Shown piece after piece: positions 28,039 through 43,991 of a stretch of 64,000 bases of DNA (position 1 is its first letter; each line of letters begins with the position of its first letter). Both the position numbers and the translations under genes were made by a program. This stretch comes from Flavobacterium frigoris (GTDB lineage Bacteria > Bacteroidota > Bacteroidia > Flavobacteriales > Flavobacteriaceae): assembly GCF_900111075.1 (NCBI RefSeq), contig NZ_FOFZ01000001.1, forward strand, positions 124,001 through 188,000, in the 5' to 3' direction. The notes beneath the pieces are model-generated. The model worked only from the letters and a program-made list of their open reading frames with translations, was not told the DNA's origin and ran no database searches.

Positions 28039-29379
28039 ATGAAAATTGTAATTGTTGGAAGTGGATACGTTGGGCTTGTAACTGGCGCATGTTTTTCGGA
28101 AGTTGGTATTGATGTTACGTGTGTTGATATAGACCGTAATAAGATAGATAACCTTAATAAGGGTATTATACCTATTTATGAACCAGGCTTAGAAGATATG
28201 ATTACCCGAAATATGAAAAAGGGGCGATTAAGTTTTACAACTAACATTGCAGAGGCCTTAAAAGATTCTGAAGTTTTATTTATTTCTGTCGGAACTCCAC
28301 CAGATGAAGATGGCAGTGCAGACTTAAAATACGTTCTTGCTGTTGCTAGAGATTGTGGAAAGCATATGAATGATTACTTACTAGTGGTTACAAAAAGTAC
28401 GGTTCCCGTAGGTACTTCTATAAAAGTAAAACAGGCATTACAAGAAGAACTAGATAAAAGGAATATTGATATAGAATTTGATGTAGCATCAAATCCCGAG
28501 TTTTTAAAAGAAGGAGCTGCTATTGACGACTTTTTAAAACCGGATAGAATTGTAGTTGGAATAGAAAGCGAAAGAGCAGAAGACTTAATGAAGAGTTTAT
28601 ATAAACCATTTACTCTTAATGGTCACCCCGTAATTTTTATGGATATTATTTCGGCTGAAATGACTAAATATGCCGCAAATTCAATGCTAGCTACAAAAAT
28701 TAGTTTTATTAATGATATAGCAAATCTTTGCGAAATTGTTGGAGCCGATATAAATAAAGTAAGAAAAGGTATTGGGTCAGATTCTCGTATAGGGCATAAA
28801 TTTTTATATGCAGGCATTGGGTATGGAGGTTCTTGTTTCCCAAAAGATGTTCAGGCATTAATAAAAACAGCAAGTGAATTCAATTATGAATTGCGTGTGC
28901 TTAAAGCTGTTGAAGCGGTTAACAAAGACCAAAAACTGATACTCTTCAATAAAATCACGAATTACTTTAAAGGAGCTATTAAAGGCAAAACCATCGCATT
29001 ATGGGGACTTTCCTTTAAACCACAAACAGATGATATGCGTGAAGCCCCTTCATTAGATGTAGTGAAAAATCTTTTAGAAGCTGGCGCTATAGTAAAAGCG
29101 TATGACCCAATTGCTATTAATGAAGCTAAGCATCACTTTGGAGATACTATTCTATATTATGAAGATCAGTATGAAACCTTAATTGATGCAGATTGTCTAG
29201 CCATACTTACAGAATGGCCAGAATTTAAGATTCCTAATTTTAAAATTGTACGCAAATTACTTAATACACCAGCAATTTTTGATGGACGTAATATTTATGA
29301 TAGAGAAGAAATGAAAGAAAATGGCTTTGATTATTTCTGTATTGGTATTGACACATCAAAAAATAATGTAAAATCCTAA
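28039..29379 (+). CDS. ugd: UDP-glucose 6-dehydrogenase
   Basis: This 446-residue cytoplasmic enzyme oxidises UDP-glucose to UDP-glucuronate with two NAD+. The Rossmann motif GSGYVGLVTGACF (7-19), the NPEFLKEGAAIDDF segment and the catalytic cysteine C266 in GGSCFPKD are intact. The C-terminal UDP-binding domain ends normally. It is the first gene of the EPS locus and supplies the substrate of the following decarboxylase, whose start is 3 bp downstream. Confidence 0.96.
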   Translation: MKIVIVGSGYVGLVTGACFSEVGIDVTCVDIDRNKIDNLNKGIIPIYEPGLEDMITRNMKKGRLSFTTNIAEALKDSEVLFISVGTPPDEDGSADLKYVLAVARDCGKHMNDYLLVVTKSTVPVGTSIKVKQALQEELDKRNIDIEFDVASNPEFLKEGAAIDDFLKPDRIVVGIESERAEDLMKSLYKPFTLNGHPVIFMDIISAEMTKYAANSMLATKISFINDIANLCEIVGADINKVRKGIGSDSRIGHKFLYAGIGYGGSCFPKDVQALIKTASEFNYELRVLKAVEAVNKDQKLILFNKITNYFKGAIKGKTIALWGLSFKPQTDDMREAPSLDVVKNLLEAGAIVKAYDPIAINEAKHHFGDTILYYEDQYETLIDADCLAILTEWPEFKIPNFKIVRKLLNTPAIFDGRNIYDREEMKENGFDYFCIGIDTSKNNVKS

Positions 29380-29382
29380 ATT

Positions 29383-30321
29383 ATGTCACGAAAAAAAATA
29401 CTTGTAACCGGTGGTGCTGGTTTTGTTGGTTCTCATTTATGTGAGCGTTTATTAAATGAGGGGAACGAAGTTTATTGTTTAGATAATTTTTTTACTGGAC
29501 AAAAACAAAACGTAGTACACTTATTAGATAATCCTTATTTTGAATTAATCCGTCATGATGTCACTGCACCTTTCTTTATAGAAACTGATGAAATTTACAA
29601 TTTAGCATGTCCTGCTTCTCCTATACATTATCAGTATAACGCCATTAAAACAATGAAAACTTCTGTGATGGGAGCTATTAATATGTTGGGACTTGCGAAA
29701 CGCGTAAATGCCAAAATATTACAAGCATCTACTAGCGAAGTTTATGGAGATCCACTTGTTCATCCGCAACCAGAATCCTATTGGGGTCATGTTAATCCAA
29801 TAGGAGAAAGAGCCTGTTATGATGAAGGAAAACGTTCAGCAGAAACCTTGTTCATAAACTATCACAAGCAAAACAATGTAAAAATTAAAATCATTAGAAT
29901 ATTCAATACATACGGACCTAAAATGCATCCAAACGATGGGCGTGTAGTTTCGAATTTTATTGTTCAAGCTTTACAAAATCAAGATATAACTGTTTACGGA
30001 CAAGGAAATCAAACACGAAGCTTTCAATATGTTGACGACTTAGTTGAGGGTATGATAAGGCTAATGAATTCAAAAGATAGTTTTACAGGGCCTGTAAATG
30101 TTGGAAACCCAAATGAATTTACAATTCTTGAGTTAGCTCAAAAAGTAATAGAACTAACCGGTTCCAAATCAAGGATTATTTATCAACCATTACCGTCAGA
30201 TGATCCTATGCAAAGGCAACCAGATATTTCTATAGCTAAAAAAGAATTAGACTGGTCACCAAAGGTAAATCTTGATGAAGGTTTAATAAAAACGATAGAT
30301 TTCTTTAAATCAATTATTTGA
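29383..30321 (+). CDS. UDP-glucuronate decarboxylase (UDP-xylose synthase)
   Basis: This 312-residue short-chain dehydrogenase/reductase has NAD-binding GGAGFVGSH (10-18), catalytic YDEGK (Y146, K150) and the UXS-specific PASPIHYQ and [18 protein letters not shown] segments. It decarboxylates UDP-glucuronate to UDP-xylose, so with ugd the locus can supply both GlcA and xylose to an exopolysaccharide. It is coupled to ugd with a 3-bp gap. Confidence 0.93.
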
Positions 30322-30372: not shown

Positions 30373-30759
30373 ATGAAGAAAAAAATATTAGTTTTAGATG
30401 ATGAAGTAAGTATCTGTCTTTTGCTAGAGAACTTTCTTTCCAAGAATTATGAGGTAATTTCACTTAATAACGGGTTAGATGCTCTTCTATGGCTTGATAA
30501 TAATATCCCTGATTTAATAATTAGCGATATTCAAATGGAAACGATGGATGGATACGAATTTTTAACAAACCTTCGCCAACGTGGATTTACAAAGCATACT
30601 CCTTGCATCATGCTCTCAGGGAAATCAGAAAGTAAAGAACGAATAAAATGTTATAAACTAGGTGCGCAAGATTATCTTACAAAGCCTTTTAATCCAGAAG
30701 AATTAGAAGAATTAGTTAAAAAAAATCTATTCCCAATTCACTATGCCATTGACTGGTAA
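30373..30759 (+). CDS. Single-domain response regulator (CheY-like) in the EPS locus
   Basis: This 128-residue stand-alone receiver has the acidic triplet DDE (9-11), phospho-acceptor D52 in IISDIQM and the lysine of YLTKPF (about 101). There is no output domain. It lies directly before the receiver-fused sugar transferase (41-bp gap), so it may relay phosphate to or from that protein, or act with the Hpt protein encoded at 27059. Confidence 0.9.
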   Translation: MKKKILVLDDEVSICLLLENFLSKNYEVISLNNGLDALLWLDNNIPDLIISDIQMETMDGYEFLTNLRQRGFTKHTPCIMLSGKSESKERIKCYKLGAQDYLTKPFNPEELEELVKKNLFPIHYAIDW

Positions 30760-30800: not shown

Positions 30801-32009
30801 ATGAACATGCACAAAAATCTTAATATTTTATACATTGGAAACGTTCCTGAATATTTTGATGTCATGGAACAAAAAAATAAATGGTCGATAATTACTTTAG
30901 AGAATAGTGTTAAAGTCACTAATTACCTAAGCACTCACGAACATCCTAATGCGATTGTTTGTGATTATAACTTACCTGGAAATAATGGTATATTTCTTTT
31001 TGATTGGATTAGAGAAAATAAAGAATTTGATAGCATCCCTTTTATCCTTTTATCCAAGGAATTTAATGTTGATATTTATAAGTTAGCATTTAAAAAACAA
31101 ATTGATGATTTTTATATAACTTCAGTAACTCCACCACAAGATATCTTAAGCCGGATAGAATTTCTTTGTAGCAATAAAAAACCTTCAAAAGTTCAAATAT
31201 CACAAAAAACAACTGACGAAGTTTACAGAATGCCACGATCAAAACGTATTTTTGATGTTTTTGTTGCATCTTCTGTACTTTTATTTGCATCACCCTTCCT
31301 GCTACTTATTGTACTTGCAATAAGGTTAGAATCAAAAGGAAAAGTGTATTACATATCAAAAAGGGTAGGACGTAAAACATTTGACTTTTATAAGCTAAGA
31401 TCAATGCGCACTGGCTCAGACGAACTTTTAAAAAAATTAGCTCAAGAAAAAAATCAATATAAAAAAGAAACAACAATTTCAACAGATAATCCATTAGAAA
31501 TACCTTGCCCAAAATGTAGTGCGTTGCCCGAAGGTGAATCATGTTCTCCTTTGATGTATATTGATACTCATACCATCTGTGATTATTGGTTTAATGTTCA
31601 AAAGCAAGAAGCAGCAAAAAACAATTCAACTTTTGTTAAAATTATTGATGATCCTCGCGTTACAAAAGTGGGCAAATTTATTAGAAATACTAGTATAGAT
31701 GAATTACCTCAGTTAATCAATGTATTAAAAGGAGATATGTCTATTGTGGGTAATAGGCCACTACCCGTATATGAAGCAGAGTTAATAACTGCCGATGATA
31801 TATCAAAAAGATTTTTAGCTCCTCCAGGAATTACAGGCTTATGGCAGGTCGAGTTAAGAGGAAAAGGCGGGAAAATGTCTGAAGAAGAAAGAATGCGCCT
31901 TGATAATGAATATGCTGATCATTTTAAAGGAGATAATTATTCGTTTTGGTATGATATTAAACTCATTTTAAGAACCATTCCAGCATTACTTCAAAAAGGA
32001 TCAGTTTAA
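30801..32009 (+). CDS. Receiver-fused polyprenyl-phosphate sugar transferase (initiating EPS transferase)
   Basis: The N-terminal 120 residues form a receiver-like domain with D55 in VCDYNLPGNNG, but the usual acidic pair (here YIGN) and the switch lysine (here TSVTPP) are missing. A membrane helix follows at about 151-173. The C-terminal bacterial sugar transferase domain has FDVFVAS, KLRSMRTGS, TSIDELPQLINVLKGDMSIVG split across the usual blocks, and GNRPLPVYE. An insertion of about 70 residues between the catalytic blocks contains CPKC and a further cysteine (CPKCSALPEGESC). The enzyme should start repeat-unit synthesis by moving a sugar phosphate to undecaprenyl phosphate. The receiver suggests direct signalling control. 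Confidence 0.9.
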   Translation: MNMHKNLNILYIGNVPEYFDVMEQKNKWSIITLENSVKVTNYLSTHEHPNAIVCDYNLPGNNGIFLFDWIRENKEFDSIPFILLSKEFNVDIYKLAFKKQIDDFYITSVTPPQDILSRIEFLCSNKKPSKVQISQKTTDEVYRMPRSKRIFDVFVASSVLLFASPFLLLIVLAIRLESKGKVYYISKRVGRKTFDFYKLRSMRTGSDELLKKLAQEKNQYKKETTISTDNPLEIPCPKCSALPEGESCSPLMYIDTHTICDYWFNVQKQEAAKNNSTFVKIIDDPRVTKVGKFIRNTSIDELPQLINVLKGDMSIVGNRPLPVYEAELITADDISKRFLAPPGITGLWQVELRGKGGKMSEEERMRLDNEYADHFKGDNYSFWYDIKLILRTIPALLQKGSV

Positions 32010-32037
32010 AAAACATGGTTTACTCCTAAAAAATAAC

Positions 32038-32763
32038 ATGAAAAATACATTAAAAATAATCTTAATTTTAACGGTAACGGTATTTTCGTTTGATGTTGCG
32101 CAGGCACAATCGACTGATTTTGAAAATAAAGACGAAATTTCTCTGCCTTCTCTCCAGGTTGTTATTGACTCTGTTCTAAATCGCAATGCTATGCTAAAGT
32201 TTAGAAAGCAGCATATTGGAGTCAAGGAATCAACTTTAGCATCAGAGCGTATTTATTGGACAAGGAATTTTGGCGTACAAGCTGATACGAAATACGGGAA
32301 TCTGAATAATTTTTCAACAAATGCCGATGCCCAAGGTAACACCTCTGTTTTAACAACCTCATCGCAGTTTAATTATAGTGTAGGCCTTTATGCTAAAATC
32401 CCCATTTTTGATTTTTTAAATCGAAAGCACCAAGTAGGCCTAGCCAGATTAGAGCTTGATGAGGCAAAGAGTATGGCGCAGTTTCAAGAGGATGAAATCA
32501 GACAAACCGTAATTAAAATGTACCAAGATTTAATCTTAAAACAAAAAATACTTAAAATAAAATCTAAGACTTTAGGAGACGGTAAAGTGAATATGCAAAT
32601 GGTCGAAAAGGAATTTCGCAATGGCATAGTCCCTGTTGCAGAGTATGTAAGAATAACAAGTATTGCCTCTACTGTGGAGGTAGATTATGAATTTGCCAAA
32701 TCTGAATTTACAACAGCGAAAAAACTTTTAGAAGACATGGCCGGGTTTACATTTTACAAATAA
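32038..32763 (+). CDS. Half-length TolC-like outer membrane protein
   Basis: The 241-residue protein has a Sec signal peptide (1-24, AQAQ/S) and one TolC-type repeat: an N-terminal helix, a beta-hairpin rich in aromatic residues (QFNYSVGLYAKIPIFD) and a long coiled C-terminal helix. Ordinary TolC/OEP proteins have two such repeats and 400-480 residues, so this is half the usual length. No frameshift or second half is seen downstream, because the copolymerase gene begins 15 bp later. A homo-oligomer of half units could form the EPS export channel. Confidence 0.82.
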   Translation: MKNTLKIILILTVTVFSFDVAQAQSTDFENKDEISLPSLQVVIDSVLNRNAMLKFRKQHIGVKESTLASERIYWTRNFGVQADTKYGNLNNFSTNADAQGNTSVLTTSSQFNYSVGLYAKIPIFDFLNRKHQVGLARLELDEAKSMAQFQEDEIRQTVIKMYQDLILKQKILKIKSKTLGDGKVNMQMVEKEFRNGIVPVAEYVRITSIASTVEVDYEFAKSEFTTAKKLLEDMAGFTFYK

Positions 32764-32778
32764 ACTCAAAGTAAAACT

Positions 32779-35157
32779 ATGAAAATAATTGATTTTATTA
32801 GATTAATATTAAAACATTTAGCACTATTAATTATAGTGCCTCTTTTCCTTGCCCTATTGGTTTTAGTTCTTACTAGTAAACCAAGTTTTGAATATTCATC
32901 ACAAACAGTATTGTACACCGGACTAGCAACTGGCTCTTCTGTTGAAATGGATAAAACATTCAATTATTTTGCAACTAATATTGCTTTTGATAATTTAATC
33001 AACATCATTAACTCCAGAGAAACTCAAGAAGAAGTGGCTGTGAGACTGCTTACTACGCATCTGATGTTATCTAAAGCTGACCCGAAGTACATTTCAAAAA
33101 AATTATTTGACGAACTCCAATTAAAAATTCCTAAAGAAATTTATAAGTACGTTGAAAAAGGTTCAAACAACAAAATACAAAACACCGATAGTCTGGGTTA
33201 TAGCAATTCACTTCCTCCTGGAATAAACAGATACAACTATGAAAAAACGGTACAGCGCTTATTGACCTTAATGCGAAGCAGTAACGATAATTATATCTAT
33301 GAGTTACTAAATTATGATGATGACAAGCATTATTCATTAAAAGCATTATCAAGTATACAAGCTTCACGTATTAATAGTAGCGACTTAATAAAAATGAGTT
33401 ACACCGTTAATGATCCTGGTATTTGTCAACAAACACTGGCTATTTACAATGAAGTGTGCATCAAAAATTACAAAAACATAAAAGAAAATAGATCTGACGC
33501 CGTTGTTAAATATTTTGAAGAACAATTAGGTTTAGCCAATAATAATTTAAAAATGGCTGAGGACAAACTTCTTGAGTTCAATAAGTCTTATAATATCATC
33601 AACTACTACGAACAAAGTAAAGCTGTCGCAGTCGTAAAAGAGGACATGGAGGTTGATTATAATAATAAAAAAGCACAACTAGCTGGAACGGAGGCATCCA
33701 CTAAAAGACTTGCGGAAAAGCTAAATATACAAGAATACATACAAAATGAGAACAACAAAGTTCTTGAAAAAAAGAAGTTACTCGGGGATATTAACTATCA
33801 GATAGCATTTAATGAAGCTAATTTAGAACCTAATAAAAATGAAAATCTTCTGTCTAAGCTAAATGAATTAAAAAAGCAAAGAGAATCTTTAACAAATGAC
33901 ATTAAAAAAGCTGTTGATGACATTTACCGCTATCAAAATTCAACTGATGGCGTACCTATAAGTAAGGTACTTCCAGACTGGATAAATAGTGTAGTCGAGG
34001 CTGAGAACCTTAAGGCCAAGATCAATGTTATGGATCAACAAAACAAAAAATTTGGAGAGCAATATGCAACTTATGCACCAGCTGGTGCCAATATAAAAAG
34101 AATAGAACGTGAAATTTCAGTTTCAGAACAGGGATACTTAGAATTACTTCATGGACTAAACTTAGCAAAACTAAAATTGCAAGACAATGAAATGTCTTCC
34201 AACTTAAAAGCGATTGACCCCCCGTTTTATCCCTTATCGCCCAACCCAACAAAAAGAGCAATACTAATTATTGCAGCAGCTTTTGTAGGTGGTATTTTAA
34301 CCTTAGCAATTATTTTAGTGATGGAGTATTTTGATGATACTTTAAAAAACTCTAGTAGAGCAAGCAAAAAATTAGGACTACCATCGTTAGGGATGATGCC
34401 TAAGATGATCTTAGACGCTGGCAGTATCAATTTACCCTTCATTCAGCAAAGACTAATAGAGATAATTACTCAAAATATATTACAATATTTTGGATCAAAT
34501 CCTTCTGAAAGACCAGTAAAAACCATAGTTGTATTTAGTACACAAAAAATGGAAGGTAAAACCGTTTTAGCTGGAAATATTGCCAAAACGTTGAAGCAAG
34601 AAGGTAAAAAGGTACTGATGCTAAATTATGATAGCAAGCAGGAGCCTATTGTACAGCAAAGGAAATTTCCCATCATTAATAAACTTTTGGGTTACCAAGA
34701 TCCTAGAATAGACCTTGACAATCCTTTTCTAGCTGACGTTGCTACTTACTTAGACAAAACAGAGTACTATTCGTATAAAATTGACCATTTATTTTATGAA
34801 GCAAAAAGTTATTTGGACATACTTGAACAAAATAATATTTCTCTAAATTACAATCCAGATTTTGTAATTATCGAGCTACCTGCATTAATATATAATAATT
34901 ATCCGGCAGATTTAGTGACTCATGCAGATTTAAGTATTCTGGTTTGCCGTTCTAATAGAATATGGACTGATGCAGATCAATCAGCGATAAGTAATTTATT
35001 AGTAACCTCTGCCTCAAAAATTAAATTTATAGTGAATGGCGTAAGTATAAATGAAACTGAATCTGTATTAGGAGATCTTCCAAAAAAGAGAAGCAAGTTT
35101 AGAAAGAAAATAAAAGCTATGTTTAAGTTCCAATTTTTTTCTAAAAACCAGATTTAA
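32779..35157 (+). CDS. Wzc-like polysaccharide copolymerase with divergent BY-kinase domain
   Basis: The 792-residue protein has TM1 at about 16-33, a long periplasmic Wzz domain with coiled coils (about 230-480), a PLSPNPTKR proline motif and TM2 at about 490-512, then a cytoplasmic P-loop domain (575-780). The Walker A-like loop is STQKMEGKTV, with GKT kept but the usual PGEGKS changed. The Walker A' aspartate sits in LMLNYDSK and Walker B-like VIIELPAL lacks the usual aspartates. The C-terminus (KKRSKFRKK) is basic and has no tyrosine cluster. It likely sets chain length, with little or no tyrosine-kinase activity. Confidence 0.88.
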   Translation: MKIIDFIRLILKHLALLIIVPLFLALLVLVLTSKPSFEYSSQTVLYTGLATGSSVEMDKTFNYFATNIAFDNLINIINSRETQEEVAVRLLTTHLMLSKADPKYISKKLFDELQLKIPKEIYKYVEKGSNNKIQNTDSLGYSNSLPPGINRYNYEKTVQRLLTLMRSSNDNYIYELLNYDDDKHYSLKALSSIQASRINSSDLIKMSYTVNDPGICQQTLAIYNEVCIKNYKNIKENRSDAVVKYFEEQLGLANNNLKMAEDKLLEFNKSYNIINYYEQSKAVAVVKEDMEVDYNNKKAQLAGTEASTKRLAEKLNIQEYIQNENNKVLEKKKLLGDINYQIAFNEANLEPNKNENLLSKLNELKKQRESLTNDIKKAVDDIYRYQNSTDGVPISKVLPDWINSVVEAENLKAKINVMDQQNKKFGEQYATYAPAGANIKRIEREISVSEQGYLELLHGLNLAKLKLQDNEMSSNLKAIDPPFYPLSPNPTKRAILIIAAAFVGGILTLAIILVMEYFDDTLKNSSRASKKLGLPSLGMMPKMILDAGSINLPFIQQRLIEIITQNILQYFGSNPSERPVKTIVVFSTQKMEGKTVLAGNIAKTLKQEGKKVLMLNYDSKQEPIVQQRKFPIINKLLGYQDPRIDLDNPFLADVATYLDKTEYYSYKIDHLFYEAKSYLDILEQNNISLNYNPDFVIIELPALIYNNYPADLVTHADLSILVCRSNRIWTDADQSAISNLLVTSASKIKFIVNGVSINETESVLGDLPKKRSKFRKKIKAMFKFQFFSKNQI

Positions 35158-35167
35158 ATGAGTGTAG

Positions 35168-36556
35168 ATGAAAATACTTAAAAAAATTGTGCGCGAGGAT
35201 AACTTCCTCTCATTAACTGGAAATGTTGTGATTGCAATTTTAGGAATTGGAGGCTTTGCTCTGCTTGCCAGAAGTCTAGCATTAGAGGTGTTTGGTGAAT
35301 GGGTGCTGTTTATTGCGGCAGGATCATTTATTGAAATGTTTAGGTTTGGCATTACTAATACTGGTTTGATAAGGTATCTTTCTGGAGCTGATGGTTTTTA
35401 TCGAATAAAACTGATCGGTTCTAACGCATTAATAAGTTTAGGGGCTACAATTATAGTTGCAGTGATCCTGATTGCTTGTAAATTAGTATTCCCTGAGGCA
35501 ATTAAAAATTCCGGATATAATATGTTTTTCACATGGTATCCCCTACTAGCATTTTTAAACCTTCCTTGGAATAGTGCTTTGGTAGTACTACAGGCCGATA
35601 GAAAGTATATCCAAATTTTAGTTCTTAAAGCAATTAATAGTGGTTTCTTTTTTTTAGTAATCTTACTGCACTTTCTAGTAGTCACTTTAAACCTAAATCA
35701 ATTGGTTATAGCATTGATTATCGTTAATGGGGCTACATCAATTATTAGTCTCATTTTAGGTTGGGATGGAATTCTTCACATTAAGAAAGCTAGTGTGGAA
35801 ACTAATAAAATTCTATTGCATTTTGGCAAATACACCACATTTACATTGATAGGAACTAATCTATTACGAAGTGTGGATACTTTAATTATTAGTTTAAGTC
35901 CATTAGGAAGTGCGGCCGTTGCTCTTTACAGTATTCCATTAAAGCTGACAGAATTACAGCAAATTCCTTTGAGGAGCTTTGTCGCAACAGCATTTCCTAA
36001 GATGTCTAAGGCTAGTCTACAAGATAAAATTGATGAAGTAAAAAGTTTGTTTTATACGTATTCAGGTGCCTTAACGTATCTATTTGTGGGTATAAGTTTA
36101 GTCACATTTGTATTTGCAGAATTCTTTGTTATTGCAATAAGTGGACATAAATATTTAGTAACAGATCCTATTACTGGATTTAATGTCGTTGCTATTGTTC
36201 GAGTATTTTCCGTCTATGGGTTATTACTTCCTATTGATAGGATGACGGGCGTTGGCTTAGATAGCATTAATAAACCTAAGATTAATGCCATTAAAGTATT
36301 TGTTATGCTACTAGCTAATGTGATTGGAGATTTAATAGCTATTTTAATATTTAAATCCCTAATTCTCGTTGCAATAGGCTCTATCTTTTTTACCATTATT
36401 GGTGTTTGGATGGGAATGTACTTTTTAGACAAGGAGCTATCGTTATCATTTAGAGAGATCTTTAGCAAAGGTGTACTATTTTATATCTCGCTTTTTAATA
36501 AGGCAACCCATAATCGTTATGAAAGCTTTGTGAAAATTGAAAATAACATTAGGTAA
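35168..36556 (+). CDS. Polysaccharide flippase (Wzx-like)
   Basis: This 462-residue integral membrane protein has about 12-14 hydrophobic segments and fits the MOP-superfamily polysaccharide exporters. The N-terminal LLARSLALEVFGEWV segment is typical of Wzx/RfbX proteins. It should move lipid-linked repeat units across the inner membrane. It starts 10 bp after the copolymerase gene and its stop overlaps the start of the polymerase gene by one base. A second start at the methionine near residue 59 is less likely. Confidence 0.88.
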   Translation: MKILKKIVREDNFLSLTGNVVIAILGIGGFALLARSLALEVFGEWVLFIAAGSFIEMFRFGITNTGLIRYLSGADGFYRIKLIGSNALISLGATIIVAVILIACKLVFPEAIKNSGYNMFFTWYPLLAFLNLPWNSALVVLQADRKYIQILVLKAINSGFFFLVILLHFLVVTLNLNQLVIALIIVNGATSIISLILGWDGILHIKKASVETNKILLHFGKYTTFTLIGTNLLRSVDTLIISLSPLGSAAVALYSIPLKLTELQQIPLRSFVATAFPKMSKASLQDKIDEVKSLFYTYSGALTYLFVGISLVTFVFAEFFVIAISGHKYLVTDPITGFNVVAIVRVFSVYGLLLPIDRMTGVGLDSINKPKINAIKVFVMLLANVIGDLIAILIFKSLILVAIGSIFFTIIGVWMGMYFLDKELSLSFREIFSKGVLFYISLFNKATHNRYESFVKIENNIR

Positions 36557-38037
36557 TGAGTGAACATAATAACATCAATCCCTTTGAAAATTATTCAGGC
36601 TCAATGAATATATCCAAACCTGGATATTTATTATTGCTTTTTGCTGTACTTTTCATTTTCGCTCTCCTTGTGGTTAAATTAGGAATAATAGGTATTGGAA
36701 TAGTATTAGCGCTAATGTTTGGATCCGTATTTTTATATTATTTATTCTGTTACCCAATAATTGGTTTTTATACCGCAATCGCTTTAAATTTTCTATTACT
36801 TGGCATCGGAAGATATATAAAAGGATTGCCTTTAGGTTTCGGAATAGATGGGATACTCATTTTGACCTATATAGCCTTATTCATGAATAAGTTTAAGGAA
36901 AAAATAAATTGGACTCCGGCAAAAAAAGACATTACATTCTTGTGTATTATATGGTTTGGCTATTCCCTTTTTGAAATCATTAATCCAGAGGCTCGAAGTA
37001 TACAGGCTTGGATTTCAGGACGTGGCATAGGCTTTTATCCACTACTTTTTGTTCCACTAACACTACTGTTTATTGATACTAACAAAAAATTAGAACTATT
37101 TTTATATGTCTGGGGCTTTTTTTCAGTACTCGCCACATTAAAGGGGATTATGCAAATGACTTTGGGTGTAGACTTTGCAGAGCAAGAATGGTTAAATGAA
37201 GGAAGTTATAAAACACATATTCTATTTGGAAAACTAAGAGTCTTTTCTTTCTACAGTGATGCAGGACAATTTGGAGCAAATCAAGGATATACAGGCGTTG
37301 TATTTTTGATCTACTCTATGTCTCAAAATAAATTAATGTCTAAATTATTTTTCATATTGGTTGGGCTTTTAGGAATTTATGGAATGATTATTTCAGGTAC
37401 GCGAGGTGCTTTAAGTGTCCCTATAGCAGGATTTATGACCTATTTTGTGTTAAGTAAAAATATAAAGGTCCTTAGTGCAGGTATTGGATTTTTGGTACTT
37501 GTTTTTATTTTCTTTGCGTACACATCAATTGGTCAAGGAAATGCTCAAATTAGAAGAATGCGAACCGCGTTTGACCCTAATGATGCCTCTTTACAGGTCA
37601 GACTTGATAATCAAAAAATACTTAAAAACTATTTAGCCTCAAGACCTTTTGGAGGAGGAATTGGTCATGGCGGTACAAAAGCACAAAAATACTTACCTAA
37701 TGCTTTCCTTTCTAACGTAGCAACAGATAGCTGGTATGTTTTAATTTGGGTAGAACAAGGTATTGTTGGATTATTACTCCATTTGAGTATCCTTTTTTAC
37801 GTCATGGCAAAAGCAAGCCTCATCGTTATGTTTAAGATTAAAGACCCAATTTTAAAATATAAAATATCTGCACTAATAGCAGGAATGGCAGGTATTATGG
37901 TAGCATCTTATGGAAATGCAGTTTTAGGACAAATGCCAACTGCTCTATTAATTTATGCCACTATGGCCATAATTTTAAATACCGATGTATTTGAAAAGGA
38001 GAATGAAGTAAATCAGCGCGAACTAAATAAATCATAA
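36556..38037 (+). CDS. O-antigen ligase/Wzy-like polymerase
   Basis: This 493-residue membrane protein with about 11-12 helices carries the Wzy_C-like block at 270-370. The SGTRGALSVPIAGF segment, the positively charged TAFDPNDASLQVRL and the GGGIGHGGTKAQ loop are typical of EPS polymerases/ligases. In a locus with Wzx and Wzc it most likely polymerises repeat units in the periplasm. It is coupled to the flippase gene by a one-base overlap. Confidence 0.87.
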   Translation: MSEHNNINPFENYSGSMNISKPGYLLLLFAVLFIFALLVVKLGIIGIGIVLALMFGSVFLYYLFCYPIIGFYTAIALNFLLLGIGRYIKGLPLGFGIDGILILTYIALFMNKFKEKINWTPAKKDITFLCIIWFGYSLFEIINPEARSIQAWISGRGIGFYPLLFVPLTLLFIDTNKKLELFLYVWGFFSVLATLKGIMQMTLGVDFAEQEWLNEGSYKTHILFGKLRVFSFYSDAGQFGANQGYTGVVFLIYSMSQNKLMSKLFFILVGLLGIYGMIISGTRGALSVPIAGFMTYFVLSKNIKVLSAGIGFLVLVFIFFAYTSIGQGNAQIRRMRTAFDPNDASLQVRLDNQKILKNYLASRPFGGGIGHGGTKAQKYLPNAFLSNVATDSWYVLIWVEQGIVGLLLHLSILFYVMAKASLIVMFKIKDPILKYKISALIAGMAGIMVASYGNAVLGQMPTALLIYATMAIILNTDVFEKENEVNQRELNKS

Positions 38038-38105: not shown

Positions 38106-39044
38106 ATGAATTATAGAAATATAAAAAATTTAAATGATATAATACTTCAAAAATTAAGTATAATTCCTCGCGATTTTGATTTAATTGTTGGGGTTCCACG
38201 AAGTGGTATGCTTCCGGCAAATTTACTATCATTATATCTTAATAGACCTTATACCGATATAGATTCGTTTTTAAATGGGCACATTTACAAAGCCGGAGCT
38301 AGAAGTCAGTTTTTTGATTCTGGTGAACATAAAAAAGTTTTAGTAGTAGATGACAGCATAGCATCTGGTTCTGCAATGATAGAATGTAAAGAAACGCTAA
38401 AGCATCTTGAAGATAAATTTGATATAAAATATTGTGCCATATATGTGATTCCTGGTAAAGAAAAAATGGTAGACTATTACTTTGAAACCGTGCCATTACC
38501 AAGGTATTTTCAATGGAACATACTAAACCATACAACCCTTGAGAAAGCTTGTTTTGATATTGATGGCGTTTTATGTGCTGACCCATTACCGGAACAAAAT
38601 GATGATGGAGAAAAATATATAGATTTTATTTTGAATGCTCCTCCTCTATTTATTCCCGGCAGTAAAATTGGAACTATTGTAACCTCACGTTTAGAAAAAT
38701 ACCGTAAAGAAACCGAAACTTGGTTACAGGCCAACAATATTAAATACAATGATCTTGTAATGCTTGACTTGCCCAATATGGAAGCTAGACAACGTGCTAA
38801 TAATCATGGCGATCATAAGGCTAAAGCGTATATGTCTAAACCCTATGTGTTGTTTATAGAAAGTGAATACAATCAAGCCGTTGAAATTAATAGAATATCA
38901 AAAAAGCCCGTTTTGTGTACCGCTAACTTTGAAATGATTTTTGAATCAGAGTCCTTTATGTACAATCTAAAAAGTGGAAAACACTTGCCATTTTTAAGAA
39001 AATATGCTTTAAAAATAAGAGATAAAATAAGAAAATTGAAATAG
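38106..39044 (+). CDS. Phosphoribosyltransferase-HAD fusion protein
   Basis: This 312-residue soluble protein has two parts. Residues 1-135 hold a type I phosphoribosyltransferase core: VGVPRSGMLPA (28-38) and the PRPP loop VLVVDDSIASGSA (78-90). Residues 148-290 hold a HAD-like domain with the nucleophile motif FDIDGVLC (D151, D153), a TSRLEKYR motif II and later acidic residues. The partner genes are all EPS functions. It may make or remodel a phosphoribosyl or ribose-phosphate group for the polymer or its lipid carrier, but no substrate can be named. It is clearly in the operon (68-bp gap). Confidence 0.85.
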   Translation: MNYRNIKNLNDIILQKLSIIPRDFDLIVGVPRSGMLPANLLSLYLNRPYTDIDSFLNGHIYKAGARSQFFDSGEHKKVLVVDDSIASGSAMIECKETLKHLEDKFDIKYCAIYVIPGKEKMVDYYFETVPLPRYFQWNILNHTTLEKACFDIDGVLCADPLPEQNDDGEKYIDFILNAPPLFIPGSKIGTIVTSRLEKYRKETETWLQANNIKYNDLVMLDLPNMEARQRANNHGDHKAKAYMSKPYVLFIESEYNQAVEINRISKKPVLCTANFEMIFESESFMYNLKSGKHLPFLRKYALKIRDKIRKLK

Positions 39045-39093: not shown

Positions 39094-40290
39094 ATGCCAC
39101 TATTTAATATCATACAAATTGTTTTACTATTCCTACTGGGTTTAGCGACTTTATATATTTTAATATTTTCAATAGCAAGCTTATTTTACAAACAAAAAAA
39201 ATATGCTGATAATGGGAATATAAAAAAAATAGCTGTCCTTATTCCAGGTTACAAAGAAGACGGGGTAATTCTTGAGGTGGCAAACTTAGCTTTACAGCAA
39301 GATTATCCCTCAAACCTATATGATGTTGTTATCATAGCAGATTCTTTCAAAAAAGAAACTTTAAACACCTTAAGCAGCTTACCAATACAATTAATTGAGG
39401 TGAGTTTTGATAAGAGTACAAAATCAAAAGCTTTAAACAAAGCCATGGCTACTCTTGAGAGAGATTATGATATTGCTGTAGTTTTGGATGCAGATAATGT
39501 TATGGCAACTGATTTTTTAAAGAAAATTAACGCTGCTTTCGAATATGATTTTATTGCGGTTCAAGGCCATAGAACTGCAAAAAACACCAATAACTCTTGG
39601 GCAGTACTCGATGCAATAAGCGAAGAAATAAATAATAATATTTTTAGAAAAGGACATCGAGTATTAGGGCTTTCATCAGCGATAATTGGTTCTGGAATGG
39701 CTTTTAAATATAATTATTTTAAATCACTTATGTCAACTGTAACTGCCGTTGGTGGTTTTGACAAAGAGATAGAATTAAAAATGCTAAAAGAAGGTCATAA
39801 GATCGTTTATTTAGATGACGCTATTGTATATGATGAAAAAATACAAAAATCTGAGGTTTTTGGAAACCAACGTCGCAGATGGCTGTCTGCACAATTACAT
39901 TATTTTAGGAAAGATATTTTAACTGCCTTTAAACACTTACTATTTAAAGGAAACTTAGATTATTTTGACAAAGCTATTCAGTTTATTCAACCGCCTAGAG
40001 TATTATTATTAGGTGCTGTTATGCTTTGTAGCGTTGTTTTTGTTTCAACCAATTACTTTTTAGATAACCAAGTGTCTTTAACTAATTATTGGATTGTCTT
40101 AGCTGTAGCTTGTGTATTGTCTTTTGTTTTTTCGGTACCCACATCTTTTTACAACTTGAAAACATTGAAGGCTTTGATTCGCTTACCAAAAGGGATGTTA
40201 ATGATGTTGTTGTCTCTACTAAAAATAAAGGGAGCAAATAAGACATTTATTCATACACAACACACATCAGGCACAAAAGAAACTGACTAA
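39094..40290 (+). CDS. Membrane glycosyltransferase, family 2
   Basis: The 398-residue protein has an N-terminal membrane helix (7-30) and a GT-A domain with VLDADN (DxD-type metal site), GGFDKEIELK and NQRRRW (the QxxRW-like motif of processive and related GT2 enzymes). Two or three C-terminal helices follow (about 305-365). It adds a sugar from a nucleotide donor on the cytoplasmic face of the membrane. Q-RRRW and the C-terminal helices resemble hyaluronan/cellulose-synthase-like enzymes, but non-processive action is equally possible. Confidence 0.87.
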   Translation: MPLFNIIQIVLLFLLGLATLYILIFSIASLFYKQKKYADNGNIKKIAVLIPGYKEDGVILEVANLALQQDYPSNLYDVVIIADSFKKETLNTLSSLPIQLIEVSFDKSTKSKALNKAMATLERDYDIAVVLDADNVMATDFLKKINAAFEYDFIAVQGHRTAKNTNNSWAVLDAISEEINNNIFRKGHRVLGLSSAIIGSGMAFKYNYFKSLMSTVTAVGGFDKEIELKMLKEGHKIVYLDDAIVYDEKIQKSEVFGNQRRRWLSAQLHYFRKDILTAFKHLLFKGNLDYFDKAIQFIQPPRVLLLGAVMLCSVVFVSTNYFLDNQVSLTNYWIVLAVACVLSFVFSVPTSFYNLKTLKALIRLPKGMLMMLLSLLKIKGANKTFIHTQHTSGTKETD

Positions 40291-40414
40291 AAATATAGCA
40301 GAAGTTACTATTTTAAACGTATTATTACGAAATGAGTATGACTTTAAATTAGTCGCAATCACTGATGAAAATATGGGAATTCCATATTCCAATAAAAACA
40401 AATATTATCTACGT

Positions 40415-41575
40415 ATGAAAATAGGTATTGAAGGACAGAGACTTTTTCGCAAGAAAAAACATGGTATGGATATGGTAGCTCTGGAATTGATAAGAAACCT
40501 CCAACTTATTGATACCGAAAATGAGTACTTCATCTTTGTAAAACCAGATGAAGATAATACTGTTTTAAAGGAAACACCCAATTTTAAAATCATTCAACTC
40601 GATGGCGGTTCCTATCCAATGTGGGAACAAATAGAATTGCCTAAGGCTGCCAAAAAATATGGTTGTGAGATTTTGCATTGCACCAGTAATACGGCTCCCA
40701 TTTTTAGTGACATTCCATTGGTTACCATTTTGCATGATATTATTTATATGGAGAGCAGTTATTATAAAATACTGACAGGAAGTGCAACTCCTTATCAAAA
40801 ATTTGGCAACGCCTATCGAAAATTAATTGTCCCTTGGGTGGTCAAAAAAAGCGATAAAATAGTTACCGTTTCCCATTTTGAAAAAAATCGGATTGCTGAG
40901 TTTTTTGGAATGAGGGAGGACCAATGCCTTACAGCAATTTACAACGGTGTTAGCGAACATTTTAAGCCTATCACCAATAAAGAAGAACTGCAACGCGTAA
41001 AAGAAAAATACAATTTACCAGACAACTATTTCTTTTTTCTTGGCAATACAGACCCAAAAAAGAACACAAAAGGAACTCTAAAAGCCTTTTCAGATGTTTT
41101 AAAACAAACAGGTTCCAATCATAAACTAGTTATGCTAGATTATGATAAGACCGAACTCAATAAACTTTTAGTTGAAATTAATGACGCAGGCCTTATTAAT
41201 AATATTGTTCTAACAGGCTACGTCATAAATACAGATCTACCAGCTATTTATTCGCAATGCGACGTGTTTTTATATCCATCGCTCAGAGAAAGTTTTGGTA
41301 TTCCTATGCTCGAAGCTATGGCTTGCGGAGTACCGGTTATCACATCAAATACATCGTCTATGCCAGAGGTAGCTAAAGAAGCCGCTCATATTATTAACCC
41401 ATATAATACTGATGAAATTACGCAAGGACTTATCAAAATTTTAAATGATGATGTTTATAGAAAATTACTTTGTGATAAAGGACTAGAACGCAGTATGAAA
41501 TTTTCATGGAACAACATGGCAAAGGATTATCTCAAACTTTATGAATTAATTTTTGCAGAACATTCAAAAAAATAA
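40415..41575 (+). CDS. Glycosyltransferase family 4 (GT-B)
   Basis: This glycosyltransferase of about 386 residues has the GT4 signatures: the MKIGIEGQRLFRKKKHGMD start, the N-terminal HCTSNTAPI segment, FFLGNTDPKKN at the donor domain entry and the retaining GT4 motif ESFGIPMLEAMACGVPVI with the two conserved glutamates (EX7E). The start at 40415 is preferred because it begins directly with the GT-B fold; the frame stays open to an ATG at 40373. It follows a 124-bp gap, the longest inside the glycosyltransferase block. Confidence 0.9.
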   Translation: MKIGIEGQRLFRKKKHGMDMVALELIRNLQLIDTENEYFIFVKPDEDNTVLKETPNFKIIQLDGGSYPMWEQIELPKAAKKYGCEILHCTSNTAPIFSDIPLVTILHDIIYMESSYYKILTGSATPYQKFGNAYRKLIVPWVVKKSDKIVTVSHFEKNRIAEFFGMREDQCLTAIYNGVSEHFKPITNKEELQRVKEKYNLPDNYFFFLGNTDPKKNTKGTLKAFSDVLKQTGSNHKLVMLDYDKTELNKLLVEINDAGLINNIVLTGYVINTDLPAIYSQCDVFLYPSLRESFGIPMLEAMACGVPVITSNTSSMPEVAKEAAHIINPYNTDEITQGLIKILNDDVYRKLLCDKGLERSMKFSWNNMAKDYLKLYELIFAEHSKK

Positions 41576-41581
41576 TTAACC

Positions 41582-42778
41582 ATGATAGAAGGCAAAAACA
41601 TAATTTGTATATCACAAACCACTTGGCATGGTGAGTACACAAAATCAACAGTGCAATTATTATCGTTATTAGCAGAGAAGAACAAAATCGTTTTTGTTGA
41701 ATATCCTTTTACAGTCAAAGATGTTCTCATGTCTATTCTAGGAAAACAAAAAGCACAGGTATCGAGAATGCTGGGTTTAAAAAAAAGAATAATTGATGAA
41801 AAAACAGATAATGGATCTGTTGTTAAACATTTAGTAATGCCACCAGTATTGCCTGTAGATTTTATTGGTAATGAATCGATATTTAAAAAGCTTTTTAGTA
41901 TCAATACATTTATTTATAAAACTCAACTTCGCAAAGTTATTAAAAAATTAAAATTAGACAATCCTATTATTATTACCGCATACAACCCTATTTATGGCTT
42001 ACCAATGATAGGACAGTTGAATGAATTACTGAATATCTATTATTGCTATGACGGTATGGATACGCAAAGGCATAAATCAAGAATTTTTGATATTGAAAAG
42101 CAGTTTTGCGAGAAAGTTGATGGTATCATAACAACATCAGATTATTTAAACTCTGAAAAAAAGAAGCTAAATAAGCAGAGTTATGTGGTTAAAAACGGTG
42201 TAGATTTTGAGTTATTTATCGCTCACGCAAAAAAGCAAGTTTCAACTAATAGTATAAAAAAAGTAGGCTATATAGGCACCTTAGATTTTAGGTTTGATAT
42301 AGATATAATGGAATATACCATTAAAGAACTACCTCATGTACTATTTGAGTTTACAGGTTATTTATTAAACCACAATATAAAACAGCGCTTATTGCAATAT
42401 GAAAACGTTTCATTTTTTAATTCGGTTAAACCCCATGAAGTTCCTAAACTATTATCAAAATATGATTTAGGCATTATTCCATATAAAATGGATGAGGTTA
42501 ATAAAAATATATATCCACTTAAAATTAATGAATATTTAGCCGTGGGAGTTCCTGTGGTTATGACAGACTTTGCCAATTTAAACGATTTTAAAGAGATGGT
42601 GAAATCGGCTGAAAATAAGGAGTTTTTTAAAACCCAAATTGAAAATGAATTAAAGAACGATAATAATGCATTAATTAATGAAAGGATTCAATTTGCTAAA
42701 CTTAATTCATGGCAAGTAAGAGCTGAAGAATTTGGAAATATTCTTGAAAAATTTGTCATAGAAAAAGGCAATAATTAG
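41582..42778 (+). CDS. GT-B glycosyltransferase (TuaH-like)
   Basis: This 398-residue GT-B protein resembles TuaH/WcaI-type transferases. Visible are an N-terminal ICISQTTWHGEYTKS segment, YYCYDGMDTQ, GYIGTLDFRFD at the start of the donor domain and IYPLKINEYLAVGVPVV in place of the classical GT4 motif, with a conserved glutamate in INEYLA. It is likely to add one sugar to the repeat unit. It begins 6 bp after the previous glycosyltransferase gene, so both are translated from one transcript. Confidence 0.87.
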   Translation: MIEGKNIICISQTTWHGEYTKSTVQLLSLLAEKNKIVFVEYPFTVKDVLMSILGKQKAQVSRMLGLKKRIIDEKTDNGSVVKHLVMPPVLPVDFIGNESIFKKLFSINTFIYKTQLRKVIKKLKLDNPIIITAYNPIYGLPMIGQLNELLNIYYCYDGMDTQRHKSRIFDIEKQFCEKVDGIITTSDYLNSEKKKLNKQSYVVKNGVDFELFIAHAKKQVSTNSIKKVGYIGTLDFRFDIDIMEYTIKELPHVLFEFTGYLLNHNIKQRLLQYENVSFFNSVKPHEVPKLLSKYDLGIIPYKMDEVNKNIYPLKINEYLAVGVPVVMTDFANLNDFKEMVKSAENKEFFKTQIENELKNDNNALINERIQFAKLNSWQVRAEEFGNILEKFVIEKGNN

Positions 42779-42800
42779 ACTAAAAAATAAAAAAAATGCT

Positions 42801-43991
42801 ATGTTAACACTAAAAATTATATGCTGGGTATTACTATTTATCATTGTTTACACGTACGTTGGTTATGGCATTTTACTATATACAATTATCAAAATTAGAA
42901 GGTTTTTGAAGATTGGAAATAAGGTTAAGATCGATCCATCTTATGAACCAGATGTAACGCTTTTTATTGCAGCATATAATGAAAAGGATTATGTAGCCGC
43001 AAAAATGAAAAACACCTTAGCACTGGAATACCCTAAAGAAAAACTAAATATTATTTGGGTTACAGATGGTTCTGATGATGGAACACCCGATTTATTAAAA
43101 GGGTATCCAAATACAACCGTATATCATTTAGAGGAAAGAAACGGAAAAATTGGAGCAATGAACAGAGGTATGGAATTTGTAAAAACACCAATTGTAATTT
43201 TTAGTGACGCCAATACCAATCTAGGCAAAGAATCTATTAGACGAATAGTTAATTTATTTAGTAGTACTAAAGTAGGCTGTGTCTCTGGCGAAAAGAGAAT
43301 TGTTGATAAAGAAAGTGATGTGGCTTCTGGAGCAGGCGAAGGAATTTACTGGAAATATGAATCGGCGCTAAAAAAATGGGATGCGGAATTATATTCTGTT
43401 GTTGGGGCAGCAGGAGAATTATTTGCAATTAGGACAGTGCTTTACAAGCATGTAGAAAAAGACACTATATTAGATGACTTTATTATATCATTAAGAGTCG
43501 CTCAAGAGGGTTACACTATACAATATGACCCCGAAGCTTATGCCATAGAAACCGCCTCTGCTAATGTTAAAGAAGAATTTAAACGCAAAATTAGGATTTC
43601 TGCGGGAGGAATTCAATCTATTGTAAGATTACGTTCGTTATTGAATATTTTTAAATATGGAACGCTTTCATTTCAGTACATTTCCCATCGGGTTTTACGC
43701 TGGAGTTTAACACCTTTGTGTCTCATTCTCCTAATTCCAATTTTAACAATATTAGCAGCTAAAGAAGGCTTTTTATCTTTTGGGTTTTATTCCGTATTAT
43801 TTTGGCTGCAATTACTTTTTTACGCTTCAGCTTTATTAGGTTGGTTCTTAGAGAATAGAGAGACGAGGATAAAAATTCTGTTTGTACCGTACTACTTTTT
43901 CATAATGAATTTATCAGTGGTATTAGGATTTTTTAGATATATGAAAAAATCGCAATCCGTAAATTGGGAACGTGCTAAAAGAGCAAGTTAA
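42801..43991 (+). CDS. Membrane glycosyltransferase, family 2
   Basis: The 396-residue protein has an N-terminal helix (4-30), a GT-A domain with IAAYNEKDYV, WVTDGSDDGT, IFSDANTN (DxD-type site) and ILDDFIISLRV, and three C-terminal helices (about 305-385). It is a GT2 enzyme related to poly-N-acetylglucosamine- and cellulose-synthase-like transferases. The QxxRW motif is replaced by KIRISAGG. It is the last transferase of the locus. Confidence 0.88.
   Translation: MLTLKIICWVLLFIIVYTYVGYGILLYTIIKIRRFLKIGNKVKIDPSYEPDVTLFIAAYNEKDYVAAKMKNTLALEYPKEKLNIIWVTDGSDDGTPDLLKGYPNTTVYHLEERNGKIGAMNRGMEFVKTPIVIFSDANTNLGKESIRRIVNLFSSTKVGCVSGEKRIVDKESDVASGAGEGIYWKYESALKKWDAELYSVVGAAGELFAIRTVLYKHVEKDTILDDFIISLRVAQEGYTIQYDPEAYAIETASANVKEEFKRKIRISAGGIQSIVRLRSLLNIFKYGTLSFQYISHRVLRWSLTPLCLILLIPILTILAAKEGFLSFGFYSVLFWLQLLFYASALLGWFLENRETRIKILFVPYYFFIMNLSVVLGFFRYMKKSQSVNWERAKRAS

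Follow-up and report, generated by a model that had tools for sequence, protein, structure and literature searches.

A PRT-HAD fusion protein in an EPS cluster of Flavobacterium frigoris is a candidate PRPP-dependent ribofuranosyltransferase for glycans

What might a phosphoribosyltransferase (PRT) joined to a HAD-type phosphatase in a single polypeptide be doing in the middle of an EPS cluster? The question is raised by a gene, here referred to as PRT-HAD, in a stretch of 64,000 nucleotides of the F. frigoris genome (the window; contig NZ_FOFZ01000001.1). An earlier note on this DNA had recognized that a PRPP loop, VVDDSIASG (residues 80–88), and a HAD motif, FDIDGVLC (residues 150–157), are encoded together, and both do lie in one ORF of 312 aa. 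The note suggested a two-step reaction in which phosphoribose is transferred and the phosphate is then removed, as in the mycobacterial synthesis of a lipid-linked ribose. Phosphoribose transfer followed by dephosphorylation is still the best-supported reading, while the mycobacterial lipid route has become less likely. On balance, PRT-HAD is probably a soluble, cytoplasmic, PRPP-dependent ribofuranosyltransferase for glycans. The observations behind this proposal are the two domains, the intact PRPP and HAD residues, the operon-like context, the conserved neighbours, and the fusions to glycan enzymes.

The ORF is real and not a chance reading frame. When it is compared with five relatives, the codon differences are mostly synonymous, with synonymous to non-synonymous counts of 124/14 (locus L009), 95/14, 110/28, 123/35, and 134/47 (L028). 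The gene setting is confirmed as an EPS cluster (Table 1), as the earlier note had it: the Wzy_C gene lies directly upstream and four glycosyltransferase-type genes lie downstream, with genes for a sugar-phosphate transferase, a Wzc-like protein, a UDP-glucose dehydrogenase and an epimerase-family protein upstream. The initiating transferase was identified from PF02397, the OEP-type gene from PF02321, and the Wzc-like gene from a match to a TIGR03007-type chain length determinant model that is below its cut-off. The Wzx-like flippase gene matched no Pfam or NCBIfam family and is named from our own reading. The dehydrogenase matched PF03721, PF00984 and PF03720, and the epimerase-family gene, which matched PF01370 and PF16363, is read as being of the UDP-xylose synthase type. 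The initiating transferase (30801–32009) has an N-terminal stretch that resembles the receiver domain of response regulators (PF00072, at 28.5 bits slightly short of the cut-off) and is adjoined by a separate protein, receiver-like by eye, at 30373–30759. A 671-aa protein with a DUF4842 domain follows the EPS genes at 45460–47475.

Table 1. Features of the PRT-HAD gene and the surrounding EPS cluster, in window coordinates
Feature	Position	Strand	Basis or remark
PRT-HAD fusion gene	38106..39044	+	312 aa
Type I phosphoribosyltransferase domain, residues 1-142	38106..38531	+	PF00156, PDB profile, fold
Pyrophosphate-binding loop G-V-P-R-S-G, residues 29-34	38190..38207	+	alignment
PRPP loop LVVDDSIASG, residues 79-88	38340..38369	+	alignment
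Hood motif R-x-F-x-W-N, residues 133-138, predicted acceptor site	38502..38519	+	alignment
Cap-less HAD phosphatase domain, residues about 143-277	38532..38936	+	AlphaFold2 model, fold
HAD motif I D-I-D-G-V-L-C, residues 151-157	38556..38576	+	D153 99/99, D151 98/99
HAD motif II T-S-R, residues 193-195	38682..38690	+	T193 93/99, R195 98/99
HAD motif III lysine K238	38817..38819	+	99/99
HAD motif IV E-S, residues 252-253	38859..38864	+	E252 99/99, S253 96/99
Wzy_C (O-antigen polymerase/ligase-like) gene	36556..38037	+	PF04932 E=4.4e-11; 68 bp upstream of PRT-HAD
GT2 glycosyltransferase gene	39094..40290	+	PF13641 E=1.3e-23; 49 bp downstream of PRT-HAD
Two GT4-type and one GT2-type glycosyltransferase genes, EPS cluster	40373..43991	+	
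Initiating sugar-phosphate transferase, OEP-type, Wzc-like and Wzx-like flippase genes	30801..36556	+	
UDP-glucose dehydrogenase and NAD-dependent epimerase family gene	28039..30321	+	Pfam

PF00156 (Pribosyltran) was the only Pfam model to match the 312-aa protein at E ≤ 0.1, covering residues 7–130 (E = 3.2e-9, 36.7 bits against a curated cut-off of 26.3). In a profile search against the PDB, the best match for the PRT domain was a purine PRT (4z1o, E = 1.2e-10); the pur operon repressor and PyrR are also among the PDB matches. The full-length AlphaFold2 model of the protein has a mean pLDDT of 87.6, and its PRT fold superimposes on H. pylori XGHPRT (7kl7, Z 15.5, RMSD 3.6 over 134 residues) and E. 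coli XGPRT (4jit, Z 15.1, RMSD 2.1 over 116). No membrane segment was detected, the maximum 19-residue hydropathy being 1.23. At E ≤ 0.1, eleven NCBIfam models matched and none reached its own cut-off, salvage-enzyme models included; a profile match that would identify the protein as a known salvage enzyme, which the earlier note had named as evidence against its idea, was thus not obtained.

Conservation was assessed over 99 divergent family members, of which 58 are viral and 41 bacterial. In the pyrophosphate-binding loop, G29, P31, R32, S33, and G34 are present in all 42 sequences of alignment A2, and G34 is found in 98 of the 99 members. The PRPP loop is similarly constant (D83 in 99, G88 in 96 and D82 in 95). 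Within the hood motif, whose counterpart in an archaeal purine PRT is FPWD, W137 is retained in 98 members, N138 in 93 and R133 in 73. Although W137 matches the tryptophan of purine PRTs, it could equally well stack on a sugar instead of a base.

The C-terminal half is less easily recognized. Neither Pfam nor NCBIfam provided a HAD model for the protein at E ≤ 0.1, and the half searched alone met no NCBIfam model at E ≤ 0.01. Since no HAD model of these two libraries matched, the HAD assignment rests on the conserved motifs and the AlphaFold2 model, and the motif picked out by the earlier reader is one that these libraries miss. Modeled alone, the HAD half (146 residues) has a pLDDT of 91.6. 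A Foldseek search of this model against the PDB returned no match at E ≤ 0.001, the best being 0.012. A second structural aligner placed the T4 Pnkp phosphatase first (5uj0, Z 12.9, RMSD 2.6 over 118) and Pnkp1 next (4xru, Z 12.6, RMSD 2.9 over 121), with scores well above most later rows. The HAD profile gave four matches in the PDB at E ≤ 10, the best of which was again Pnkp1 (4xrp, E = 0.0026). Weak PHROGs matches over the HAD half were to a polynucleotide kinase (phrog_415, E = 2.6e-4) and to phrog_1238 (E = 5.8e-4); the latter, annotated as phosphoheptose isomerase, matches the F. frigoris protein at residues about 147–224.

From the first nucleophile residue, D151, to T193 of motif II there are 42 residues, a span in which the model shows a single helix of 9 residues and a short turn, leaving no cap domain. 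The signature of a cap-less HAD is complete in its DxD nucleophile, T/S, K and acidic motif IV (D151, D153, T193, K238, E252); a HAD domain lacking its catalytic aspartates, which the earlier note had also considered, is therefore not what is seen. Motif IV of HAD proteins is more usually D-D. PRT-HAD shares a HAD fold without cap with the T4 Pnkp 3'-phosphatase (5uj0) and Pnkp1 (4xru), and is unlike T4 Pnkp in its E-S motif IV, in having no kinase domain and in its PRT partner. Motif IV of T4 Pnkp is D-D. Eight key residues of the catalytic and loop positions in both active sites are jointly intact in 89 of the 99 family members. The ten exceptions comprise T193 replaced by S in five, G88 by A or T in three, a gap at G34 in one, and one member (L222) with both D151 and T193 altered; at position 193 alone, S occurs in 5/99 and A in 1/99.

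The PRT-HAD gene is patchy and accessory. Full-length relatives occur in 12 of 299 Flavobacteriaceae genomes and in 10 of 395 Bacteroidota genomes, with the genome of F. frigoris counted in each. Other matches among the 299 genomes are mostly short and pair the HAD half with separate proteins of about 150 aa. Such stand-alone HAD-like proteins are common in Flavobacteriaceae genomes (for example, L077 1414–1860) and match the HAD half at residues about 147–224. A scan of genome contigs identified 56 loci with identities down to 43%, from phyla that include Bacillota, Pseudomonadota, Fibrobacterota, Elusimicrobiota, and Synergistota. With the centre counted in each case, the rates were 5/289 in the class of a Hyphomonas locus, 6/274 in the class of a Shewanella locus and 2/398 in the phylum of a Pseudoneobacillus locus. 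Relatives were also found in 41 of 72,556 plasmid records (Rhizobium 26, Sinorhizobium 7, Paracoccus 4, and four other genera with 1 each).

Among the close Bacteroidota loci (42 loci, L009–L050), a relative of the same GT2 gene lies directly downstream in 31 of the 39 with room, and a relative of Wzy lies directly upstream in 23 of the 40 with room. The EPS setting is thus conserved in close Bacteroidota; however, the family also occurs outside EPS loci in some genomes. Further along the EPS clusters of the relatives, inspection by eye found a probable GMC oxidoreductase in 11 loci (for example, L024 15097–16821) and a small protein like gluconate dehydrogenase subunit 3 in 10 (for example, L015 15596–16171). 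A similar oxidoreductase lies near the PRT-HAD gene of Hyphomonas (L054 4675–6135).

A set of 33 other bacterial loci was also considered, two of which (L213 and L224) have no family ORF in the non-overlapping ORF set. Their neighbours were surveyed as 84 genes within two same-strand ORFs at 30 loci, excluding those at least 3000 bp away, opposite-strand ORFs and translations with stops; L219 has no neighbour within these limits. GT2 family PF00535 matched 14 of the 84 genes, a raw count without a background control, and Polysacc_synt and Polysacc_synt_3 matched two each, possibly the same genes. Glycan genes were not in view, judging the ORF lists by eye, at L056, L063, L057, L058, L064, L214, L222, L225, and L226, several of these contigs being short. 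At the two of these that are from Selenomonadales (L056 4250–6293 and L063 1585–3611), PRT-HAD is followed directly by ispD and ispF. On two rhizobial plasmids (L095 and L096), PRT-HAD is downstream of a caspase-family gene and near both glycosyltransferases and type VI secretion genes (VgrG, DUF4150).

Relatives are also present in viral contigs. An IMG/VR scan with alignment A3 found 183 stretches that encode relatives, from which 80 loci were kept, and the two IMG/VR scans together gave 84 metagenomic viral loci. A family ORF was obtained from 77 of these, the other 7 having none in the non-overlapping ORF set, and thinning at 80% identity left the 58 viral members. Neighbours were excluded if at least 600 bp away, at least 1000 aa long, on the opposite strand or translated with stops. 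The 100 directly adjacent genes matched Methyltransf_23 (16), Methyltransf_11 (15), PF00535 (8), PF10111 (6), and Nucleotid_trans (3), with several of these models matching the same genes. As a control, 100 genes were drawn from 202 ORFs that lie on these contigs at a distance of 4.5 kb or more; each of the five families had at most one match (none was among the 25 families listed), and GT4-type PF00534 had two. One kind of small methyltransferase is found at 16 of the 58 viral loci, and at 14 of these it overlaps the gene or lies within 100 bp of it. Of 31 other bacterial loci, 3 have the same methyltransferase, either next to the gene or fused with it, and all 42 close Bacteroidota loci lack it. 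The neighbours and fusion partners of the family, which the earlier note had recommended surveying, are often glycosyltransferases or methyltransferases.

A search of 50,697 phage records gave no match, either to the F. frigoris protein (E ≤ 1e-3) or to any of four viral members used as further queries (E ≤ 1e-5). A terminase control had matches in 1167 of the records, and thus the search works; since all five queries found nothing, the result counts against a wide spread in known phages. Phage structural families are encoded on the same IMG/VR contigs. The viral occurrence rests on metagenomic contigs, some of which could be mis-sorted.

Fusions are weighed above neighbours as evidence. A GT2 domain precedes PRT-HAD in L052 and L060, a GT4 domain follows it in L130, and methyltransferases are joined to it in L053 (FkbM, after PRT-HAD), L059 (after PRT-HAD) and L196 (before PRT-HAD). 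An NTP transferase precedes PRT-HAD in L173 and L183; in two viral members the N-terminal NTP transferase weakly resembles IspD. One 806-aa viral protein (L122 6459–8879) seems to join an N-terminus that is GT-like by eye to methyltransferase, PRT and HAD domains. A tree of all 99 sequences groups the 11 Bacteroidota EPS members in a single clade (99/97). The viral label changes 7 times and the other bacterial label 8 times, against means of 32 and 26 when labels are shuffled; supported branches force only two changes of each, and the deep forks are weak. We rely on the tree for the Bacteroidota clade alone and otherwise take it as a hint of exchange.

The mechanism that we infer, from donor and step order to acceptor, ribose identity and the part of the methyltransferase, would proceed as follows. 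PRPP is cytoplasmic. In the first step, the N-terminal type I PRT would bind PRPP-Mg and transfer ribose-5-phosphate to a sugar hydroxyl on the EPS repeat unit as this is being built on its lipid carrier, with release of pyrophosphate. In the second step, the cap-less HAD domain would take off the 5-phosphate to leave a neutral ribofuranosyl residue, which the next glycosyltransferase could extend. Outside the close Bacteroidota, the small methyltransferase whose gene abuts PRT-HAD in some loci may methylate the product.

Bipartite ribofuranosyltransferases of the gPRT-PRP type were reportedly described by Kelly et al. 2022. Fusions of this kind have been shown biochemically for Klebsiella O4 and O7, the Haemophilus b capsule and Campylobacter Cj1432; Klebsiella O4 ORF5 and Cj1432 use PRPP in vitro, and the Hib Bcs3 polymer is built from PRPP and CDP-ribitol (PMC11127046, PMC11231755, PMC12096443, PMC10299916). 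For polysaccharides at least, the earlier note was mistaken in seeing no precedent for such a fusion among known EPS pathways, and the two-step logic is already known. PRT-HAD resembles Klebsiella O4 ORF5 and O7 ORF7, Hib Bcs3 CriT-CrpP and Cj1432 in that a PRPP-type transferase and a HAD domain share one polypeptide in a polysaccharide locus, and the two-step chemistry of these enzymes is proposed for PRT-HAD by analogy.

The likeness does not extend to the domains as described. The PRT comes first in PRT-HAD, unlike in the gPRT-PRP enzymes. The acidic pair is split in Bcs3 CriT (D680 and E818) whereas it is adjacent in the canonical PRPP loop of PRT-HAD (D82–D83), CrpP has a helical cap at residues 393–490 whereas the HAD of PRT-HAD is cap-less, and Bcs3 and Cj1432 have a further transferase fused on. 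Since both domains differ from the gPRT-PRP descriptions, PRT-HAD is probably a separately assembled variant. No gPRT-PRP chain is named in the PDB profile matches or in the best 50 rows of the fold lists, where absence is no evidence that the folds differ. Among the papers listed in searches of an open-access library, none was recognized as a description of the PRT-HAD family.

Several observations count against the glycan reading. The nearest solved relatives of the PRT are purine-salvage enzymes and the stacking tryptophan is kept, the 3'-phosphates of nucleic acids are the substrates of the HAD domain's nearest solved relatives, glycan genes are not in view around some members, the methyltransferase is absent in close Bacteroidota, and five queries found no relative in the phage records. 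The best surviving alternative, though an unlikely one, is that PRT-HAD makes a nucleoside or nucleoside-like metabolite, with the PRT coupling PRPP to a heterocyclic base, purine-like or otherwise, and the HAD serving as a 5'-nucleotidase. It would agree with a PRT whose fold and profile are nearest to those of purine PRTs, with the near-invariant W137, and with the members outside glycan loci. PRT-HAD is indeed like the purine PRTs (7kl7, S. solfataricus GpT-2 4z1o and E. coli XGPRT) in fold, PRPP loop and hood tryptophan, and unlike them in its fused HAD, its glycan gene context and its base lysine. The lysine that 6-oxopurine PRTs use for the base (K115 of E. coli XGPRT) aligns at residue 115; with the position set by the 4z1o alignment, this residue is K in only 7 of the 99 family members. 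The lack of an NCBIfam match at cut-off and the many neighbours and fusion partners that are glycan enzymes also speak against a nucleoside product. Plain purine salvage is therefore kept as a rival but lowered, because of the missing lysine and the context.

Pairs of PRTases and HADs in Ter systems have been proposed to make nucleoside derivatives in sequence (PMC7824862), which would favor a nucleoside product here as well. The Ter enzymes are separate proteins with TerB/C/D partners, none of which is among the F. frigoris proteins scanned: between 28039 and 47475 the plus strand has 15 ORFs of 100 aa or more, and the 14 scanned (all but that of the receiver protein at 30373) matched no Ter family, nor is one among the 25 commonest neighbour families. 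A Ter-type system was rejected on this ground.

It is improbable, and more so than a nucleoside product, that PRT-HAD is a polyprenyl-phosphate phosphoribosyltransferase and phosphatase supplying a lipid-linked donor of ribose, or of arabinose after epimerization. Such systems do exist: C. youngae ORF15, in which a UbiA-type transferase and a HAD (PRP) form one protein, makes prenyl-phosphate-linked ribofuranose. The known polyprenyl phosphoribose transferases of the Rv3806c type are integral membrane proteins of the UbiA type, and HAD-type phosphatases are not related to Rv3807c (PMC11127046). PRT-HAD likewise lies in an EPS cluster and, as proposed, would share with the UbiA-type synthases a PRPP donor, phosphoribosyl transfer followed by dephosphorylation, and a pentofuranose destined for glycans. 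The UbiA-type synthases have an integral membrane fold and a lipid acceptor, whereas PRT-HAD is soluble by hydropathy and has a type I PRT fold close to that of purine PRTs. All four UbiA matches of the F. frigoris genome are outside the window, the genome has no match to the ALO family, and no GT-C or GtrA-type model is among the Pfam matches of the 18 window proteins scanned. The ALO family is the DprE1 type. The mycobacterial-type lipid route offered by the earlier note is thus probably wrong; the solubility of PRT-HAD and its different fold are the grounds on which it was rejected as the leading reading. Least probable of all is a regulator or proofreader in which no ribosyl group is transferred, the PRT being a sensor of PRPP or a nucleotide and the HAD trimming a glycan intermediate that carries a phosphate, for although some PRT-fold proteins regulate, as do the two regulators among the PDB matches, the PRPP and pyrophosphate loops are intact in nearly all 99 members and the fusions found join glycan-type enzymes and none a DNA-binding domain.

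The entry of ribofuranose into bacterial glycans has been solved only recently, for a single class of soluble enzymes and for a membrane route. If PRT-HAD is a ribofuranosyltransferase for glycans, it may, as a tentative and somewhat less favored extension, represent a second, separately assembled class of PRPP-dependent glycan ribosyltransferase in which a purine-salvage-type PRT serves as an O-glycosyltransferase together with a Pnkp-type cap-less phosphatase. Members of this class would occur in different bacterial phyla and in many uncultured phages, frequently together with glycosyltransferases or with a dedicated methyltransferase, and would perhaps decorate the surface glycans of phage or host with capped (O-methylated) ribose. 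The enzyme itself is small, is predicted to be soluble and lends itself to direct testing. Were the proposal true, a nucleotide-salvage fold would be able to act as an O-glycosyltransferase, the gene would point to glycans with ribose at many loci in Bacteroidota and elsewhere, and it would provide a handle on how uncultured phages use glycan genes.
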